Shown piece after piece: positions 6,381-17,573 of a DNA stretch of 22,709 nt. Source of the stretch: a virus; the IMG/VR virus record IMGVR_UViG_3300031857_001490, positions 1 to 22,709 of that record; one strand, 5' to 3'. The translations under genes and the position numbers were made by a program. The notes below the pieces were generated by a model. That model was not told the origin of the DNA, made no database searches, and saw nothing but the letters and a program-made list of their open reading frames with translations. Each line of letters starts with the position of its first letter. Position 1 is the first letter of the stretch.

Positions 6381-7460
6381 CTAGTAGCTGTTGATTATTG
6401 TTTGGGCTTCTTTTTTAGCAATATAGTCTTCATAACTAAGCATGTTGTAAGTAACTTCAACTATACTAGCAAGGGCCACATCCTCACTCTGTGAATCAAT
6501 TAGGTCTTTAAGAACATTTCTGGCCAAATTATAGTATATCTTTTCAGTCAAGAGGTTCTCCTGATGAAGGTATTCTATAAACTCCTTGTCATCTAAGTGA
6601 TAAAAGTCATCAACTGCGTCTATAAAAGCAATAGCAAGTTTAGTATGCATCCTACAACGTTTGCTAATGATCCAACTAAACTGATTATAAAGACTTCTGA
6701 TATACTCAGCTGATTTCATAATATCAGAACGGCACATCAAATCAAAGCCAATAATAACATCATTTTTATCACTAGAGCTAAGCATGTTTTTGATAGTCTC
6801 ATACATGACTTCATCAATGACCACCTTTTCAAGACTGTCTATAAAAACGTCTTCATTGATAACTGGAATTCCTTTTGCCATCTTCCAGTATACAACTTCT
6901 AGTAGTTTATCTGTAATACAATAGGCATCGTAAGACATCGTCTCATAGTAGAAAGACTTGGTAGTAGGATTCAGAATGTTATCACCAAATACTACAACTT
7001 CACCAGATTCAGGTAATCGTCCAATATATTCCACAACATCATTAAGATATGATGGTCTTGTAGTTTCTCTTAGACTTAGTTCTCTACCAAAAAGATAACC
7101 TAGTGTAAATGATAAAGAAGAAGCATTAATAGTATCAGAACGTAAGAAAATTTCATGACCTACAATTACATCTGCATTCTTAGGATGACCTGTAATACGG
7201 TATCCATTTTGTCTACAGTATTCTTTGTAGTCTTCCATTCTCAACTTGCCATCAGGAATGAAGTAAATCTTCATATCCTTTTTGAGAACGTCAATAGTAT
7301 CCCTCCCCGAGAGGAGAGATACTAGACGTTTCAAATTATCATATGACAGCTGATGAGCCAGGTAGCCAGCCCTGACTTTAGGGAATACTGACACCTGCTT
7401 ATCAATGAATTTAAGTTTACTTAATTGTTCTGCAGTCAAAGCAGATTTGATTATACTCAT
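6381..7460 (-). CDS. unknown protein with a possible BRCT-like segment (359 aa)
   Basis: The 359-residue product has no firm family. Residues about 62-105 (MKIYFIPDGKLRMEDYKEYC, then HPKNADVIVGHEIFL) resemble a BRCT-type fold, where a strand, helix and the NADVIVG strand would align with the usual TDxLVxG pattern. The rest is helical, with several Asp/Glu-rich segments and a helical C-terminus. Its ATG overlaps the MoxR ATPase stop by one base (TAATG), so it is probably translated with the MoxR-VWA genes and may be a partner of them. It ends in TAG, the only TAG stop in the window; reading through would add seven codons to a TAA at 6360-6362. Confidence 0.65.
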   Translation of the reverse strand: MSIIKSALTAEQLSKLKFIDKQVSVFPKVRAGYLAHQLSYDNLKRLVSLLSGRDTIDVLKKDMKIYFIPDGKLRMEDYKEYCRQNGYRITGHPKNADVIVGHEIFLRSDTINASSLSFTLGYLFGRELSLRETTRPSYLNDVVEYIGRLPESGEVVVFGDNILNPTTKSFYYETMSYDAYCITDKLLEVVYWKMAKGIPVINEDVFIDSLEKVVIDEVMYETIKNMLSSSDKNDVIIGFDLMCRSDIMKSAEYIRSLYNQFSWIISKRCRMHTKLAIAFIDAVDDFYHLDDKEFIEYLHQENLLTEKIYYNLARNVLKDLIDSQSEDVALASIVEVTYNMLSYEDYIAKKEAQTIINSY

Positions 7461-8650
7461 TATTTAACAGCCATTTGTGCAACCATAGGATTGATCATGA
7501 GTTTTGCAAACTTGTCTTTGTTACCATTAAGGATTGTCTTCAACATATGATACTTGATATCAAAGGTGAACACGTCTGTGGTAACAATAGAAGTTACACG
7601 ATCCATAATCTTCTGAGTTACATCATTAGTTAGGGAATAGTTTACGGTATAGTTGATGATACGAGTTGCCATTACATTAGCAATATCAGCTCTATAACCA
7701 TCTCCTGTACCAATCACAATTTTGAGTTCATCTTCAACTTCTTTCCAGTTGTCTTTTAGAAGGACTTTGTCCGGGCTAATCAACTTGTCAAGCTTGTTGT
7801 TAATGAACATAGTAAACATGGTACCAATCTCTGGACCCACAGAACCTTCAGCAATGAACTGAATCATGGCCAAAGACTCAGGAGTATCAAAGTTAGGTAA
7901 ACTTGAGATACTATTAAAGAAAGTAGTCATTGCACGAGCATTGGTTTCTTTCTTTACTACATCTGGGTGCATCAATAAGAAGTTGATACAACGAGTATCA
8001 ATTCCATTTTTTTCTGCCCATTGAGCCCAGCAGTCAATATCAAACTTCAAGTTTGCTGTAATGAATCTGGTCTTCTGAGCAACGTCAATAGAGTTGACAT
8101 TATAGTCACCATTATCAGGATTGGTGGTCAACAAGATGTGCCAGTCCTTTGGAAGTTTCCATGAGATGTACTCCTGACGGTCAATCAATTCCATACATGC
8201 CTGTAAGAATCTTTGATCTGCACGAGTATAGTCATCTAGGATTAGGATACCACCCTCTCCTCTGCCTTGAATCCATTCAGGAGCAGCATGGGCCATTCTC
8301 TTTTCTCCAGAAGGAACATACTTGTTTTGAATATACATAGGCAACAAAGACTCAGGTACCCATTTAGTCAATACCTTGCCGTCCTCCCCTTGTTTCTTTA
8401 CTTCAAACTCCTTGAGTGGAAAGCCAGTAAGGTCACCAATCTCCTCGATCTGAGAGAGATTTAGTTTAACTACCTGCAGACCTAACTCTTTACCGATCTG
8501 AAGAATGGTACTGGTTTTACCAATACCAGCTTCACCTTCTACAGCAACAGCAACAGGGATCTTGCCATTTGCTTGCAGATAACGGTTATTAGATACAATG
8601 TGATTCATGAACCCTTTGAGTTCATTTGTGTTAAGATTTACTTGTGACAT
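7460..8650 (-). CDS. MoxR-type AAA+ ATPase
   Basis: The 396-residue protein has Walker A GEAGIGKT (39-46), Walker B ILILDD (135-140), sensor-1 TTNP (175-178) and a likely arginine finger in QKTRF (R195). The helix after Walker A is followed by LSQIEEIGDLTGFP, typical of the MoxR/AAA_5 branch (pattern LxxxxxxxDLxG). MoxR ATPases act as chaperones or remodellers, usually with a VWA partner bound through its MIDAS metal site. Here the gene directly upstream encodes such a VWA protein, separated by only 2 bases, so the pair very likely forms one complex. What it remodels in a phage is unknown; replication proteins, virion assembly or host conflict are all possible. Confidence 0.88.
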   Translation of the reverse strand: MSQVNLNTNELKGFMNHIVSNNRYLQANGKIPVAVAVEGEAGIGKTSTILQIGKELGLQVVKLNLSQIEEIGDLTGFPLKEFEVKKQGEDGKVLTKWVPESLLPMYIQNKYVPSGEKRMAHAAPEWIQGRGEGGILILDDYTRADQRFLQACMELIDRQEYISWKLPKDWHILLTTNPDNGDYNVNSIDVAQKTRFITANLKFDIDCWAQWAEKNGIDTRCINFLLMHPDVVKKETNARAMTTFFNSISSLPNFDTPESLAMIQFIAEGSVGPEIGTMFTMFINNKLDKLISPDKVLLKDNWKEVEDELKIVIGTGDGYRADIANVMATRIINYTVNYSLTNDVTQKIMDRVTSIVTTDVFTFDIKYHMLKTILNGNKDKFAKLMINPMVAQMAVK

Positions 8651-8652
8651 AC

Positions 8653-9852
8653 TTAGTTAAGCTTTATTTGAGGGCCTTTTAATGATTTATTTATTTGTGC
8701 ATGAGTTGATATTACCCAGAGCATTTTGCCTCTTACAGTAACATCTGTATGACATTCACCATCGGTGAGATATACAAGACAAGAATACTTGCTTACATTT
8801 TCATTATAGTACTCCAAGACAGGATCAAAACTGGTACCTCCACGGCCAACAATTTTAACCTTATCTCCTTTCTTATAAGGCATAATGGATCCAATAGCAG
8901 AATCACACTGGATAACTGTAATATCACTGCCGGTAGCATTGATATGATCAATCTCCTGAAAGAACTCTAACAGTTCTTTATCACTAACAGAACCTGAAGT
9001 ATCAATAGCAACAAGAATATGTCTACGTTGCTTGATCTTAAGACCAGGATTGTCTTCAAATCTTTTGTTGAACTTACGTCTGAGTTTCTTTGTATATACA
9101 ATTTGGGAACCTCCTGCAAATCTTCTAAGATAACCTCTCCAGTCAAATCTTGGTGGTTCCTTATGATTAATCTTTTGGAGAATAGTTTGAAACTCTCCTG
9201 GAATAGTTCCTCTACTTTTCTGAATTTGTTCAGCAACCTGATTAATAGTATGCTCAATCTGAGCCTTCATCAGTTTCTTTTCTGCTTCACTAAGGTCTTC
9301 AAATTCATCCCATGTGCTATGGTCTGGTACAGGAGTACCATCGTCGGTTTGTAACTTACCGGCTCCAATAGCAGCAACCATGTCTTGAATTTTCTTTCCT
9401 GCACTAGATTGAGGTTTTTTATTCATCTCATCTAGTAGTAGCTCATAATACTTCCTCCAGCCAACTTTCTTAGGAAGATTCAATGGACCAAAAACTTCAT
9501 TATCGATAAAGCATCCTCCTTCAGGAAGATACTTCTTATCAATATATTGATTGATTTCCAAATCCATTGCAATATTTACAAGTTCTCCGTTCATTCCCTT
9601 GTTATCATACTCAAGGTGAAAGAAACCGATATGAAGCAATTCATGCTTCAATAGACCAATTCTATGATCAGATGAAAGATCTCCCCAGAACTTAGGATTA
9701 ACTACCAATTGATAATTGATCCCGTTCTTAGAAACTCCAGCTGTTGGAACCCGGTCTGATATTTCTTTGTTAAGACTAATAAGCAAGAGCCCATAAAAGG
9801 GCTCAAGCAACATTAGATCTTTACTGGTTTTGGATATCGTACTGTAATCCAT
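8653..9852 (-). CDS. DUF2201-type protein: HExxH metallopeptidase-like domain plus VWA domain
   Basis: The 399-residue protein joins two domains. The N-terminal part has LLKHELLHIGFFHL (H70, E71, H74), a zinc-peptidase-type HExxH, followed by NIAMDLEINQYID (93-105), as in DUF2201 proteins. The C-terminal part is a VWA domain with an intact MIDAS: DTSGS (284-288), GGT (T340) and LTDGE (D363). DUF2201 proteins are regular companions of MoxR ATPases, and the MoxR gene follows after 2 bases. Inferred role: substrate recognition, and perhaps proteolysis, in a MoxR complex. The third zinc ligand and real peptidase activity cannot be confirmed from sequence. Its ATG overlaps the stop of the upstream 141-residue gene (TAATG). 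Confidence 0.87.
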   Translation of the reverse strand: MDYSTISKTSKDLMLLEPFYGLLLISLNKEISDRVPTAGVSKNGINYQLVVNPKFWGDLSSDHRIGLLKHELLHIGFFHLEYDNKGMNGELVNIAMDLEINQYIDKKYLPEGGCFIDNEVFGPLNLPKKVGWRKYYELLLDEMNKKPQSSAGKKIQDMVAAIGAGKLQTDDGTPVPDHSTWDEFEDLSEAEKKLMKAQIEHTINQVAEQIQKSRGTIPGEFQTILQKINHKEPPRFDWRGYLRRFAGGSQIVYTKKLRRKFNKRFEDNPGLKIKQRRHILVAIDTSGSVSDKELLEFFQEIDHINATGSDITVIQCDSAIGSIMPYKKGDKVKIVGRGGTSFDPVLEYYNENVSKYSCLVYLTDGECHTDVTVRGKMLWVISTHAQINKSLKGPQIKLN

Positions 9853-10277
9853 TATTCTTTAGGTATAAGTTTGAGATGAAAATCTTCCATGAAACTAAAT
9901 CCCCAGCTAACCATCACATTAGCCAAACTGCCTGCAAACTTTTCCAAGAAATAGTTTATAGCCTCTGGTTTAATGCTCCCGTGAGCTTTTACTTCCTGAT
10001 ACAACTTATTGTAAGTCAGGTCTTTTGGATTATCACTCAATGTAATCGTTATACAATGACTATTGAGTTTCTCTTTAATGATGTTAAGAAACACAGTTTT
10101 TCTGTTCTCAACAGAAGACTCCTTGAACATGATCAAAAGATAAGGAAGATTGGCAGCAACATCAATGTTACGTATAGTCTCCTCTACAACAGTTAAGTTA
10201 GTCTTGTCATTACTCTTAAGCATCTGAAGGATGTTGTCACATACCTCAGGGGTTAACTCTAATTGATTGCTTTCCAT
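9852..10277 (-). CDS. unknown protein upstream of the VWA gene (141 aa)
   Basis: A 141-residue soluble protein, mostly helical, with recognisable pieces LTPEVCDNILQMLKSNDKTN, a short Ile/Thr-rich strand segment CITITLSD, and KPEAINYFLEKFAGSLANVM. I recognise no family. One-base stop/start overlaps on both sides (10277 and 9852) tie it to the DUF6915 gene and to the VWA gene. It is therefore a candidate third component, adaptor or substrate of the MoxR-VWA pair; this rests on context only. Confidence 0.65.
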   Translation of the reverse strand: MESNQLELTPEVCDNILQMLKSNDKTNLTVVEETIRNIDVAANLPYLLIMFKESSVENRKTVFLNIIKEKLNSHCITITLSDNPKDLTYNKLYQEVKAHGSIKPEAINYFLEKFAGSLANVMVSWGFSFMEDFHLKLIPKE

Positions 10278-10618
10278 TAGTCTTGAATTTTCTCTGTTTT
10301 AAGCATCCACAACGGAGGCTTATTCATGTTCATTATCCATTCTTTTGCACTTGGTATGTAACCATTGCAGTCTTCTTTTACATGTTGTTCTCCTACATAC
10401 CTAGTCATGACCTTACGGCCAGCAGAGTTCACAAAAAAAGGTCCGAAGACCTTCTCACATTCAAATATTCCTTCACTGTGATGCCGGAATAATCTATGCA
10501 TACTGTGACCATACCACCCTTTAGTTTCATCAAACCAGTTATGTATGTGTAAATACTCTTCAGGTTCTCCTCCCCATTTCTTGGCAGAAGACCTAGCATG
10601 ATCATATGGATGTGCCAT
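10277..10618 (-). CDS. DUF6915 family protein
   Basis: The 113-residue protein opens with MAHPYDHARSSAKKWGGEPE, then IHNWFDETK, RLFRHHSEGIFECE and GEQHVKEDCNGYIPS. This order (HPYxHARSSAxKWGG, HxWFDETK, RHHxEGIF, GEQHVxED) matches what I know as DUF6915, a family found in phages and plasmids with no assigned function. The many conserved His, Asp and Glu residues suggest metal binding or catalysis. The start at 10618 overlaps the preceding gene's end by 17 bases and the HPY motif begins right at this Met, which supports the start. Confidence 0.7.
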   Translation of the reverse strand: MAHPYDHARSSAKKWGGEPEEYLHIHNWFDETKGWYGHSMHRLFRHHSEGIFECEKVFGPFFVNSAGRKVMTRYVGEQHVKEDCNGYIPSAKEWIMNMNKPPLWMLKTEKIQD

Positions 10619-10856
10619 TTTCTTGATTTTTAATCATTACTAAATCCCAAATAGGATCACCGGCAGCTTTACCATTAGCACTAAACATTAAAATACTACC
10701 TTGACAGACACCTCTCATAGGATACCTATCAGCACTTGCATCAAACAATGTAAGTTGTGTTACTATTAGTCCATGTTTAGTCCTAATAGTATACATGTCT
10801 TTATTGTTGTTGTAGTTTTCCCAATCAAAAATAAACGATTCATCCATAGCTGTCAT
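10602..10856 (-). CDS. hypothetical protein (84 aa)
   Basis: A small protein of 84 residues with no family I recognise. Its N-terminus MTAMDESFIFDWENYNNNKD is acidic, and the middle (MYTIRTKHGLIVTQLTLF) looks like beta strands. A 4-base overlap with the upstream gene (ATGA at 10853-10856) and a 17-base overlap with the downstream DUF6915 gene show it is translated as part of the cluster. No membrane segment or catalytic motif is visible. Confidence 0.6.
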   Translation of the reverse strand: MTAMDESFIFDWENYNNNKDMYTIRTKHGLIVTQLTLFDASADRYPMRGVCQGSILMFSANGKAAGDPIWDLVMIKNQENGTSI

Positions 10857-11293
10857 TTTAGATCAATAAAAGAAGTCAAAGCTTCTTCTAGTTCACCATC
10901 TTCATTTGCTTCTTCAACAGACTCAATTCTTTGATAGCCTTCAATATCCCATTTTCTTTCTTGGAGGTTGATATTAATCGTGCCATATCCACCTTCATTG
11001 TTGTACCAATCATAATCATAGTACCTATCTAGAATATGATAACCAAGCTTTATTAATTGCTTCTGAATATCTTCTGATATTAGATTTTCATCCTCAATTA
11101 AGGTAAGCTCTCCGTCATTGCCTGCTTGATAAAACTTAGCATTGTCTTCTTCAATAGATCCAGAATCACCAGATCCATCAAAGTCTATTTCTACTACAGC
11201 AATACCTTTTTCTACAAGAGATGCAAATAGCACCTTAATACTTAATTCTTTGTCTTGCTCAGGAGCTGATCCTGCTTGTGCCATACTACTCAT
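10853..11293 (-). CDS. DUF6878-like acidic protein
   Basis: This 146-residue acidic protein contains VVEIDFDGSGDSGSIE (residues 34-49), a central ILDRYYDYDWYNNEGGYGTI and then INLQERKWDIEGYQRI. The order FDGSGDSGxIE, then W...(N/D)(D/E)GxxGT, then a strand with xxRxxxxxxxxRI resembles the family I know as DUF6878, found in phages and plasmids, function unknown. The start could be Met1 or Met4; Met1 gives a 4-base overlap with the RuvC gene. It lies in a run of small proteins of unknown function between RuvC and the MoxR-VWA module. Confidence 0.6.
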   Translation of the reverse strand: MSSMAQAGSAPEQDKELSIKVLFASLVEKGIAVVEIDFDGSGDSGSIEEDNAKFYQAGNDGELTLIEDENLISEDIQKQLIKLGYHILDRYYDYDWYNNEGGYGTININLQERKWDIEGYQRIESVEEANEDGELEEALTSFIDLK

Positions 11294-11808
11294 AAGTTTT
11301 TTCTTTTAGCATACTCAGCCATTAGTAGGGCATCAACTAATCCATCATGTGGTTTAGTAGCTCTATCTCCAAAGGTGAGTTTCTGTGTTGGAAATATTCT
11401 TTTAACGGCAATAAGTGCCATGGCCTTGGTATCATTAGAAGTCTTACCAGTCTTCTTAATAACATCTACACCCTGGAACATATCTTTCTGCCATTGTTTT
11501 GCAGGTACCTTTGTGTAAGGAATACCTAAGGCAATAGCCATCATCTCCACAGCTCCAGACTGGTAACCCATACTGAATGCAGTTGCCTTACTAGAACCAA
11601 AGATGACACCTAGCTTTTCAAAAACCAGGTAAGGATTGCCTCCTGTTTTAGTGATCTCTGTCTGTTGAATATGCTGTAGCAAATCAAATAGATCAGAATA
11701 GGAAAGCTCATCTTTTACCATGGGCATGGGATGAACTTGGATACCTTCTGGTGAGAGAACCACAATAGATCCTTTCTTACCGATATCAATACCAATGTAT
11801 GTTTTCAT
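11290..11808 (-). CDS. RuvC-like Holliday-junction resolvase
   Basis: The 172-residue protein has the RNase H-like RuvC arrangement. It begins MKTYIGIDIGKKGSIVVL (catalytic D8 in the first strand), has a second acidic residue in LVFEK (E64), and ends with HDGLVDALLMAEYAKR (D155 and D159). RuvC-type resolvases cut four-way junctions; phage forms resolve recombination and replication intermediates before packaging. The length is that of bacterial RuvC. Four-base overlaps with both neighbours link it to the primase gene upstream. Confidence 0.87.
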   Translation of the reverse strand: MKTYIGIDIGKKGSIVVLSPEGIQVHPMPMVKDELSYSDLFDLLQHIQQTEITKTGGNPYLVFEKLGVIFGSSKATAFSMGYQSGAVEMMAIALGIPYTKVPAKQWQKDMFQGVDVIKKTGKTSNDTKAMALIAVKRIFPTQKLTFGDRATKPHDGLVDALLMAEYAKRKNL

Positions 11809-16608: not shown

Positions 16609-16894
16609 TCTTTTTCAGTATTCTTTGTGCTGCTTTAGTATGAGGTACGTCCTTATAGTAATCTATAGGAAAAGTCTCAAACATAACTGTTTTAGTAAAT
16701 GTTACCGCATACTTATTTACAATTTCTTTTGCTTTCTCATAACTAATACCATAATTAGATAGAGCATCGTAAAGACACTTGTTACTAAAAGACTTGATAC
16801 CATTTTCTGAAGTTATAGTAAACCAATACTCACCATTTTTAGGGTTCAGAGTACCAACAATCTTCAGATTACCATACGATTTGTTGTCTTCCAT
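16601..16894 (-). CDS. hypothetical protein (97 aa)
   Basis: I start this gene at the Met encoded at 16892-16894 (MEDNKSYGNLKIVGTL). The upstream Met at 16933 would add a hydrophobic stub lying wholly inside the UDG gene. From 16894 the overlap with UDG is 26 bases. The product has a strand-rich front (LKIVGTLNPKNGEYWFTI) and a helical rear (YEKAKEIVNKYA, TKAAQRILKKNE). I do not recognise a family. It lies between UDG and the winged-helix-like gene and overlaps the latter by 8 bases. Confidence 0.55.
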   Translation of the reverse strand: MEDNKSYGNLKIVGTLNPKNGEYWFTITSENGIKSFSNKCLYDALSNYGISYEKAKEIVNKYAVTFTKTVMFETFPIDYYKDVPHTKAAQRILKKNE

Positions 16895-17573
16895 TAGATT
16901 CAAGATAATTATTGATTTTATTCCATACATCATTACAATCCCACTTAGGTGCCTTCATGTAGGCAGCACTAGCAGGATGTGACACAATGAGTTTAAGCTG
17001 ATTATCAGGTACCATTTCTGCAAACTCTGCAGCTTTTTTACCTAGGAAGACATAGGCAATGTCTTGCTTGTTCCAAATAAGGTGATCAATAAGCTCAGTC
17101 ATGAACTGCTTCCACAATAATTGGTGTGACCCTGGCTTATTCAGGGTTGTTGTCAAACCAGAATTCAATAGAAGGATACCTTGATTAGCCCATCGTTTTA
17201 GATCAGGGTCTCTGACATAATCAGGATTAACTGTATCCTCAATAGACTTAAACATGTATTCTAGAGATTTCTCAACAACTCCAAGGTTGCTACAGCTAAA
17301 GGCAATACCATCAGCTACATTGACATTAGGATATGGATCCTGGCCAATTAATATAACCTGGAGTTTATCATACGGGCACTCCTCAAAGGCCCGGAATAAA
17401 TACTTGATCTGAGGAGTAAATTTCTTACCATCCTGAGACTCCCTTAAAAGAGTCTGGAGGATCTTCAGAAAGTCTTGGCTCATCACCTGGTTAACCATAG
17501 CTGGTCCCCAACCGGATGCCTTAACTTTCTCATACAGTTTGCTTTGGATTTCTTGCAGGTTGATCTGTTCCAT
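16869..17573 (-). CDS. ung: uracil-DNA glycosylase, family 1
   Basis: The 234-residue protein carries the family-1 UDG signatures: VILIGQDPYP (water-activating D79), GIAFSC, the uracil-binding GILLLNSGLTT (N137), VFLGKKA and the C-terminal SHPASAAY (H199), equivalent to HPSPLS. It removes uracil from DNA and leaves an abasic site. UDG is one of the recurring replication-module genes of crAss-like phages. It probably protects phage DNA from dUTP misincorporation or cytosine deamination, or else marks host DNA. The length is that of E. coli Ung. It is the first leftward gene after the divergent + strand gene; only 27 bases separate their starts, so two promoters would have to overlap or lie inside the coding regions. 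Confidence 0.95.
   Translation of the reverse strand: MEQINLQEIQSKLYEKVKASGWGPAMVNQVMSQDFLKILQTLLRESQDGKKFTPQIKYLFRAFEECPYDKLQVILIGQDPYPNVNVADGIAFSCSNLGVVEKSLEYMFKSIEDTVNPDYVRDPDLKRWANQGILLLNSGLTTTLNKPGSHQLLWKQFMTELIDHLIWNKQDIAYVFLGKKAAEFAEMVPDNQLKLIVSHPASAAYMKAPKWDCNDVWNKINNYLESNGRQQIVW

Follow-up and report, generated by a model that had tools for sequence, protein, structure and literature searches.

A phage MoxR-like ATPase and zincin-like VWA partner with a probable third component, related to a chromosomal three-gene module of bacteria

What would a MoxR-like AAA+ ATPase and a VWA-domain partner with a metallopeptidase motif do in the replication block of a phage? The locus that raises this question lies in a 22,709-base IMG/VR virus record, which was analysed over its whole length and is called the window here. 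The original prediction, made from the letters of the DNA, placed two genes at 7460-9852, and both open reading frames were found there, at 7460-8650 and 8653-9852 on the minus strand, each starting with ATG and separated by 2 nt. They belong to a compact minus-strand operon of orf141, the VWA gene, the ATPase gene and orf359, in which orf141 overlaps the VWA gene by 1 nt at 9852 and the ATPase gene overlaps orf359 by 1 nt at 7460. The description of the surroundings as a phage replication block is right for the lineage of the window, where PolB, a primase, a DnaB-like helicase, Sak4 and a PDDEXK nuclease are encoded. The features of the operon and its upstream neighbour are:

10277..10618, minus strand: DUF6915 protein, upstream neighbour (Pfam 5.3e-41)
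9852..10277, minus strand: orf141, small gene (1-nt overlap with the VWA start)
8653..9852, minus strand: partner of 399 aa with DUF2201_N (HExxHxxxxH, zincin-like) and DUF2201 VWA (MIDAS), first of the trio (Pfam and PHROG matches, invariant motifs, model, VWA fold matches)
7460..8650, minus strand: MoxR-like AAA+ ATPase of 396 aa (phrog_1297, invariant motifs, fold matches to NorQ and CbbQ2, profile match to Midasin)
6381..7460, minus strand: orf359, fast-evolving third protein, a BRCT-like segment and then a 'SSDxDNxxLAMEIM' helical domain (family downstream of the ATPase in relatives, profile match)

Similarity to orf141 was found in 60 of 155 loci, and Pfam and PHROG searches gave no significant family for it. 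The DUF6915 protein was detected in 137 of the 155 loci with an identity of up to 90 %, which places it with the best conserved proteins of the block, and its conservation next to the trio is lineage synteny. Elsewhere in the window, a uracil-DNA glycosylase family protein is encoded at 16869-17573 (NCBIfam 6e-47), and an Rfam search of the window found no structured RNA.

In Pfam, the partner scored above cut-off with both DUF2201 (2.4e-15) and DUF2201_N (3.9e-15). It carries an HExxHxxxxH motif and a full MIDAS motif (DxSxS..T..D), of which the HExxH core and the MIDAS had been predicted. All motif residues are invariant among 39 aligned partners (H70, E71, H74, H79, D97, D284, S286, S288, T340 and D364), and the catalytic and MIDAS residues are nearly invariant across phage families; the metal ligands of the partner are predicted from this invariance. 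Its AlphaFold model has a pLDDT of 84, and the C-terminal half takes a VWA fold with the NorD VWA among the structure matches, while no solved structure related to the partner by sequence was found. Ahead of the MIDAS strand lies an invariant run of basic residues (R244, K255, K256, R258, K260 and K274), a candidate docking finger. PHROGs and many RefSeq phage records annotate this metallopeptidase-VWA protein as 'HNH endonuclease' (phrog_1314), a label that we rejected, as it has no HNH domain and carries DUF2201_N and DUF2201 instead. In the literature consulted, we found no demonstration of peptidase activity for any DUF2201_N protein.

The ATPase matched PHROG 1297 at 2.9e-36, with only weak AAA and AAA_5 matches in Pfam. 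The top PDB fold matches of its AlphaFold model (pLDDT 86) are NorQ (E 1.2e-7) and CbbQ2, a MoxR protein (1.3e-6), and its sequence profile matches Midasin; it is therefore MoxR-like. Its motifs comprise Walker A GEAGIGKT, Walker B LILDD, sensor-1 N177, the Arg finger R195 and sensor-2 R239. Across 26 aligned ATPases, G44-K45-T46, D139-D140, N177, R195 and R239 are invariant, and the AAA+ core motifs also align in the N4, PBS1 and jumbo-phage relatives. Walker A, Walker B and sensor-1 had all been called intact, which stands for Walker A and sensor-1, whereas Walker B is noncanonical: its acidic pair is Asp-Asp (DD), the second acid not being Glu as in the canonical D-E. This DD pair is invariant in the aligned lineage, near-universal among the loci with a readable motif, and common to the window lineage and a chromosomal clade, whereas the N4 and jumbo-phage relatives carry D-E. 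The change from D-E to D-D appears to be conservative. In the ATPase and the partner alike, the motifs lie far beyond chance. Both genes are under purifying selection in comparison with the relative locus L082 (dN/dS 0.07 for the ATPase and 0.18 for the partner), and together with the intact motifs this supports, as far as the sequence can tell, the prediction of a working MoxR/VWA-type pair and not a relic.

Two IMG/VR searches provided 154 related loci. In all 148 loci that hold both genes, which are not fully independent because both searches can return one contig, the VWA gene comes first and the ATPase gene second on one strand. The gap between them falls within 30 nt in 125 of the 148 and is about 130 nt in four, and the remaining gaps hold nothing but genes of the GIY-YIG or LAGLIDADG type or inserted introns. 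The class of 23 'not adjacent' loci was rejected, with GIY-YIG or intron insertions, ORF-boundary effects or the ~130-nt spacer in its place. In ten loci (L023, L025, L027, L046, L050, L053, L054, L056, L057 and L058), the ATPase gene is interrupted near codon 145, directly after the Walker-B codons, by GIY-YIG genes, and one locus with a split ATPase gene also has a LAGLIDADG gene; in L008, L034, L047 and L099 a GIY-YIG gene lies between the VWA and ATPase genes. Group I introns were confirmed with Rfam in two of the four loci tested (L025 and L046). The check originally proposed, conservation of the pair beside PolB and the nuclease, turned out in its favour: the pair was found in each related locus long enough to hold both genes, so it is not absent from close relatives, and the replication context (PolB, PDDEXK, primase, Sak4, DnaB) appears wherever the contig reaches far enough.

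The original prediction had listed 6381-7460 as a neighbour of the pair, and adjacent it is, although orf359 is probably the third component of the module. Directly downstream of the ATPase, the relatives encode a protein of 340-460 aa, and all of these joined one profile family with orf359. A family member was scored in 100 of the 103 loci with room, and in at least 101 of the 103 once the miss in L047 was translated; the remaining two misses show the same gap size as L047. Tandemly duplicated and diverged copies occur in L004, L007, L016, L093, L100 and L103. Within the family, weak Pfam matches to BRCT were obtained in 3 of 26 members (E 0.004-0.007), and the helical 'SSDxDNxxLAMEIM' domain follows the BRCT-like segment; Pfam did not detect BRCT in the window's own copy, where the segment is assigned by family and position only. 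The orf359 gene is the fastest evolving one compared, with 57 % identity where the ATPase has 92 %. This rapid divergence suggests a changing target, and the protein may serve as an adaptor or target-recognition component.

A genome scan found full-length homologues of the partner in Bacteroidota, Photobacterium and Myxococcota. The trees join the window lineage with these chromosomal pairs, apart from the N4 and jumbo-phage types (support 100/99 for the ATPase and 96/96 for the VWA protein), and the sister ATPases likewise have DD in Walker B, with the VWA gene mostly preceding the ATPase gene. Ten of the 13 chromosomal sister pairs adjoin BRCT-helical-LRR proteins, once with WGR, and in several of these third proteins BRCT is above the Pfam cut-off. 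The MAG contigs L172-L175 and L199 were left out of this count; they are probably phage contigs in bins, because they carry the phage-type third gene. A profile-profile comparison matched the phage third family to the chromosomal BRCT-helical-LRR proteins over 56 helical-domain columns (p 1.3e-5, 80 % probability), and in 60 column shuffles the maximum score was 14.9 against the observed 43. By sequence comparison, the trio thus appears to share ancestry with a chromosomal three-gene module, with the third-protein match confined to those columns. The modules of Flammeovirga, Saprospiraceae and Photobacterium resemble the window in tree grouping, mostly in gene order, in the DD pair and probably in the adjacent BRCT/helical gene. 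Their third protein, however, carries LRR (once WGR/TPR), which the shorter phage version lacks, and the chromosomal copies are sporadic. No published description of such a DUF2201-MoxR module with a BRCT-helical-LRR(-WGR) protein was found in the literature consulted.

The chromosomal module looks accessory. Few genomes carry its ATPase (3 of 396 Bacteroidota and 4 of 53 Photobacterium genomes), and the BRCT-helical gene is almost confined to genomes with this ATPase, with hypergeometric p values for the co-occurrence, uncorrected for kinship, of 0.010 and 0.0023 when the seed genomes are removed. The trio of Flammeovirga sp. SJP92 lies between two caspase-domain genes (L177, 48-1217 and 11271-12674). 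In the chromosomal VWA proteins of the Aureispira/Saprospirales type (L186, L187, L189, L191-L195 and L200) the HExxH is missing, and no window-type ATPase is encoded close by; they are a solo and, to judge from their motifs, probably non-peptidase form. One Photobacterium copy, G439 (L225, about 10477-11694), looks degraded, with VWA and BRCT fragments and an intact ATPase.

Among phages, the partner was found in 425 records, including N4-like phages, PBS1, phage G, cyanophages and 350-kb coliphages, and all 16 distant phage genomes with the partner that were checked also encode the ATPase family. The two genes lie apart in two of these 16, by about 45 kb in phiTY18; 'ATPase missing' was rejected for phiTY18 and Vibrio phage 1.097.O, where the gene is elsewhere in the genome. 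A replication context conserved across all phages was rejected as well, as some phages have replication genes beside the pair and others structural ones. In phage families that are not related to one another, a thymidylate synthase or a dCTP/dCMP deaminase gene recurs a few kb or less from the pair (L160, L161, L162, L163, L164, L166, L170 and L171), and in Listeria phage LPJP1 (L167) the ATPase and VWA genes are each in several short ORFs, possibly through sequencing errors.

The MoxR-VWA pair in phages is already known, because N4 gp24 (AAA+) and gp25 (vWFA), to which the window pair is homologous, are Schitoviridae core genes (PMC4193335, PMC7650795), and a homologous PBS1-type pair of MoxR and a metallopeptidase-vWA chaperone has been described, with a role in virion assembly proposed (Iyer et al. 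2021, PMC7824862). The role of the phage pair is therefore not the unstudied ground that the original prediction took it for. On the essentiality of N4 gp24/25, our literature search found no direct functional data. The N4 genes share PHROG 1297 and 1314, the domains and the co-occurrence with the window pair, and differ in the order ATPase then VWA, in the DE Walker B and in their separate branch, 100/99 branches setting the two types apart in both trees. The PBS1-type pair likewise has the same two-protein architecture, but sits on another branch with the opposite order and a DE Walker B. An ATPase gene in first place and a DE pair set the other phage families compared apart from the window lineage. 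No significant orf359-family gene was found in the flanks of N4, PBS1 or the jumbo phages. NorQ-NorD and CbbQ-CbbO, the nearest solved MoxR folds, also have a VWA cochaperone, but no zincin domain, and their targets are NO reductase and Rubisco. In MoxR-vWA ternary conflict systems (Kaur et al. 2020, PMC7159879), the third protein beside MoxR and vWA is of the VMAP, iSTAND, FtsH or beta-propeller type; the trio resembles these systems in its three-part composition, whereas the orf359 family is none of the named third components and has only weak BRCT matches, and that paper makes no mention of BRCT, WGR or DUF2201. Identity with a known defence system was rejected, as nothing matched the PADLOC models; the predicted link to conflict systems holds only by way of the chromosomal sister loci.

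Our preferred reading, to which we give an even chance, is that the trio is an ATP-driven machine that remodels or clips proteins in the replication stage, its target being chosen by the third protein as adaptor. By analogy, the nearest mechanistic model is NorQD, where the VWA inserts a finger into the pore of the ring and the partner is twisted as ATP turns over (PMC13036017). As in NorQ-NorD, a MoxR-type AAA+ ring would drive a VWA cochaperone, here one with an N-terminal zincin-like domain. The VWA domain and its basic extension would dock in the ring, ATP turnover would twist or pull the partner, the MIDAS site would hold an acidic residue of the target, and the HExxH domain would clip or clamp it, with the orf359 protein most likely selecting the target as adaptor. 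Its expression would go along with that of the replication genes, and a replication-stage protein complex is its probable target; complex formation, peptidase activity, adaptor role, timing and target are all parts of this mechanism that we infer. In favour of the reading are the constant pairing in the lineage and in the distant phages, the nearly invariant catalytic and MIDAS residues, the matches to NorQ, CbbQ2 and the NorD VWA, the third gene with its chromosomal homologues, and the middle-gene status of the N4 homologues. Several points speak against it: the Asp-Asp Walker B pair could lower hydrolysis, a related chromosomal VWA clade has lost HExxH, and the third-protein match spans just 56 columns, with no BRCT detected in the window copy.

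A further point against the replication-stage machine comes from phages in which the pair lies among structural genes, namely S-TIM5/S-TIM54, where Hsp20 adjoins, and CBB, a neighbourhood that fits a virion role there. The ring and peptidase-VWA protein would then process or assemble structural proteins in virion assembly or maturation, in line with the published PBS1-type proposal, whose precedent is the MoxR-VWA pair in the assembly of ATV tails (Iyer et al. 2021, PMC7824862). We consider this unlikely for the window, because its lineage always has the pair inside the replication block, the N4 homologues gp24/gp25 are middle genes, and the virion proteins listed for a Pseudomonas N4-like phage do not include their counterparts. 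The fast-evolving third gene would also be atypical of an assembly factor.

The patchy, phylum-spanning distribution of the sister modules, the caspase-domain genes beside the Flammeovirga modules, the fast evolution of the third protein and the precedent of ternary conflict systems would suit a phage trio that either originated in a chromosomal MoxR-VWA-BRCT/LRR system or blocks one, neutralising a defence or acting as a dominant-negative copy. This we hold to be slightly less probable again, since there is no PADLOC match, the third component is not of the VMAP, iSTAND or FtsH type, and the genes are kept across a very large lineage in the replication core, unlike dispensable counter-defence genes. 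Most doubtful is a dedicated replication or nucleotide-metabolism factor that remodels PolB, primase, helicase or a metalloenzyme (metal insertion, as in NorQD), which draws on the replication synteny of the window lineage, the DNA helicase and DNA polymerase A adjoining the pair in LUZ7 and XC38, and dCTP deaminase and/or thymidylate synthase near it in N4-like phages, S-TIM5 and CBB, but faces neighbours that vary between families and a pair that persists whether the polymerase is PolB, as here, or PolA, as in Schitoviridae.

What is new beyond the known pair is the VWA-then-ATPase order in 148 loci, interrupted only by homing-endonuclease genes, introns or a ~130-nt spacer, and the conserved, fast-evolving third gene after the pair. 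New too, on the evidence of the trees, is the apparent grouping with pairs on the chromosomes of Bacteroidota, Photobacterium and Myxococcota that mostly adjoin BRCT-helical-LRR proteins. A bolder proposal, which we regard as unlikely to hold as a whole, is a previously undescribed ternary MoxR/zincin-VWA/BRCT-adaptor machine whose phage replication-core form and sporadic chromosomal LRR/WGR-sensor form, in Flammeovirga beside caspase-domain genes, would be the two sides of a single phage-host conflict, either set against each other or exchanged, in which recognition drives the divergence of the phage third protein. For annotation, the finding matters as N4 gp24/gp25 are core genes and PHROG-based pipelines mislabel the partner as 'HNH endonuclease'. 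The function becomes testable in an N4-like phage and with a plasmid-borne chromosomal module, and the conserved third gene together with its three-part chromosomal sister gives a lead on what the machine may recognise.
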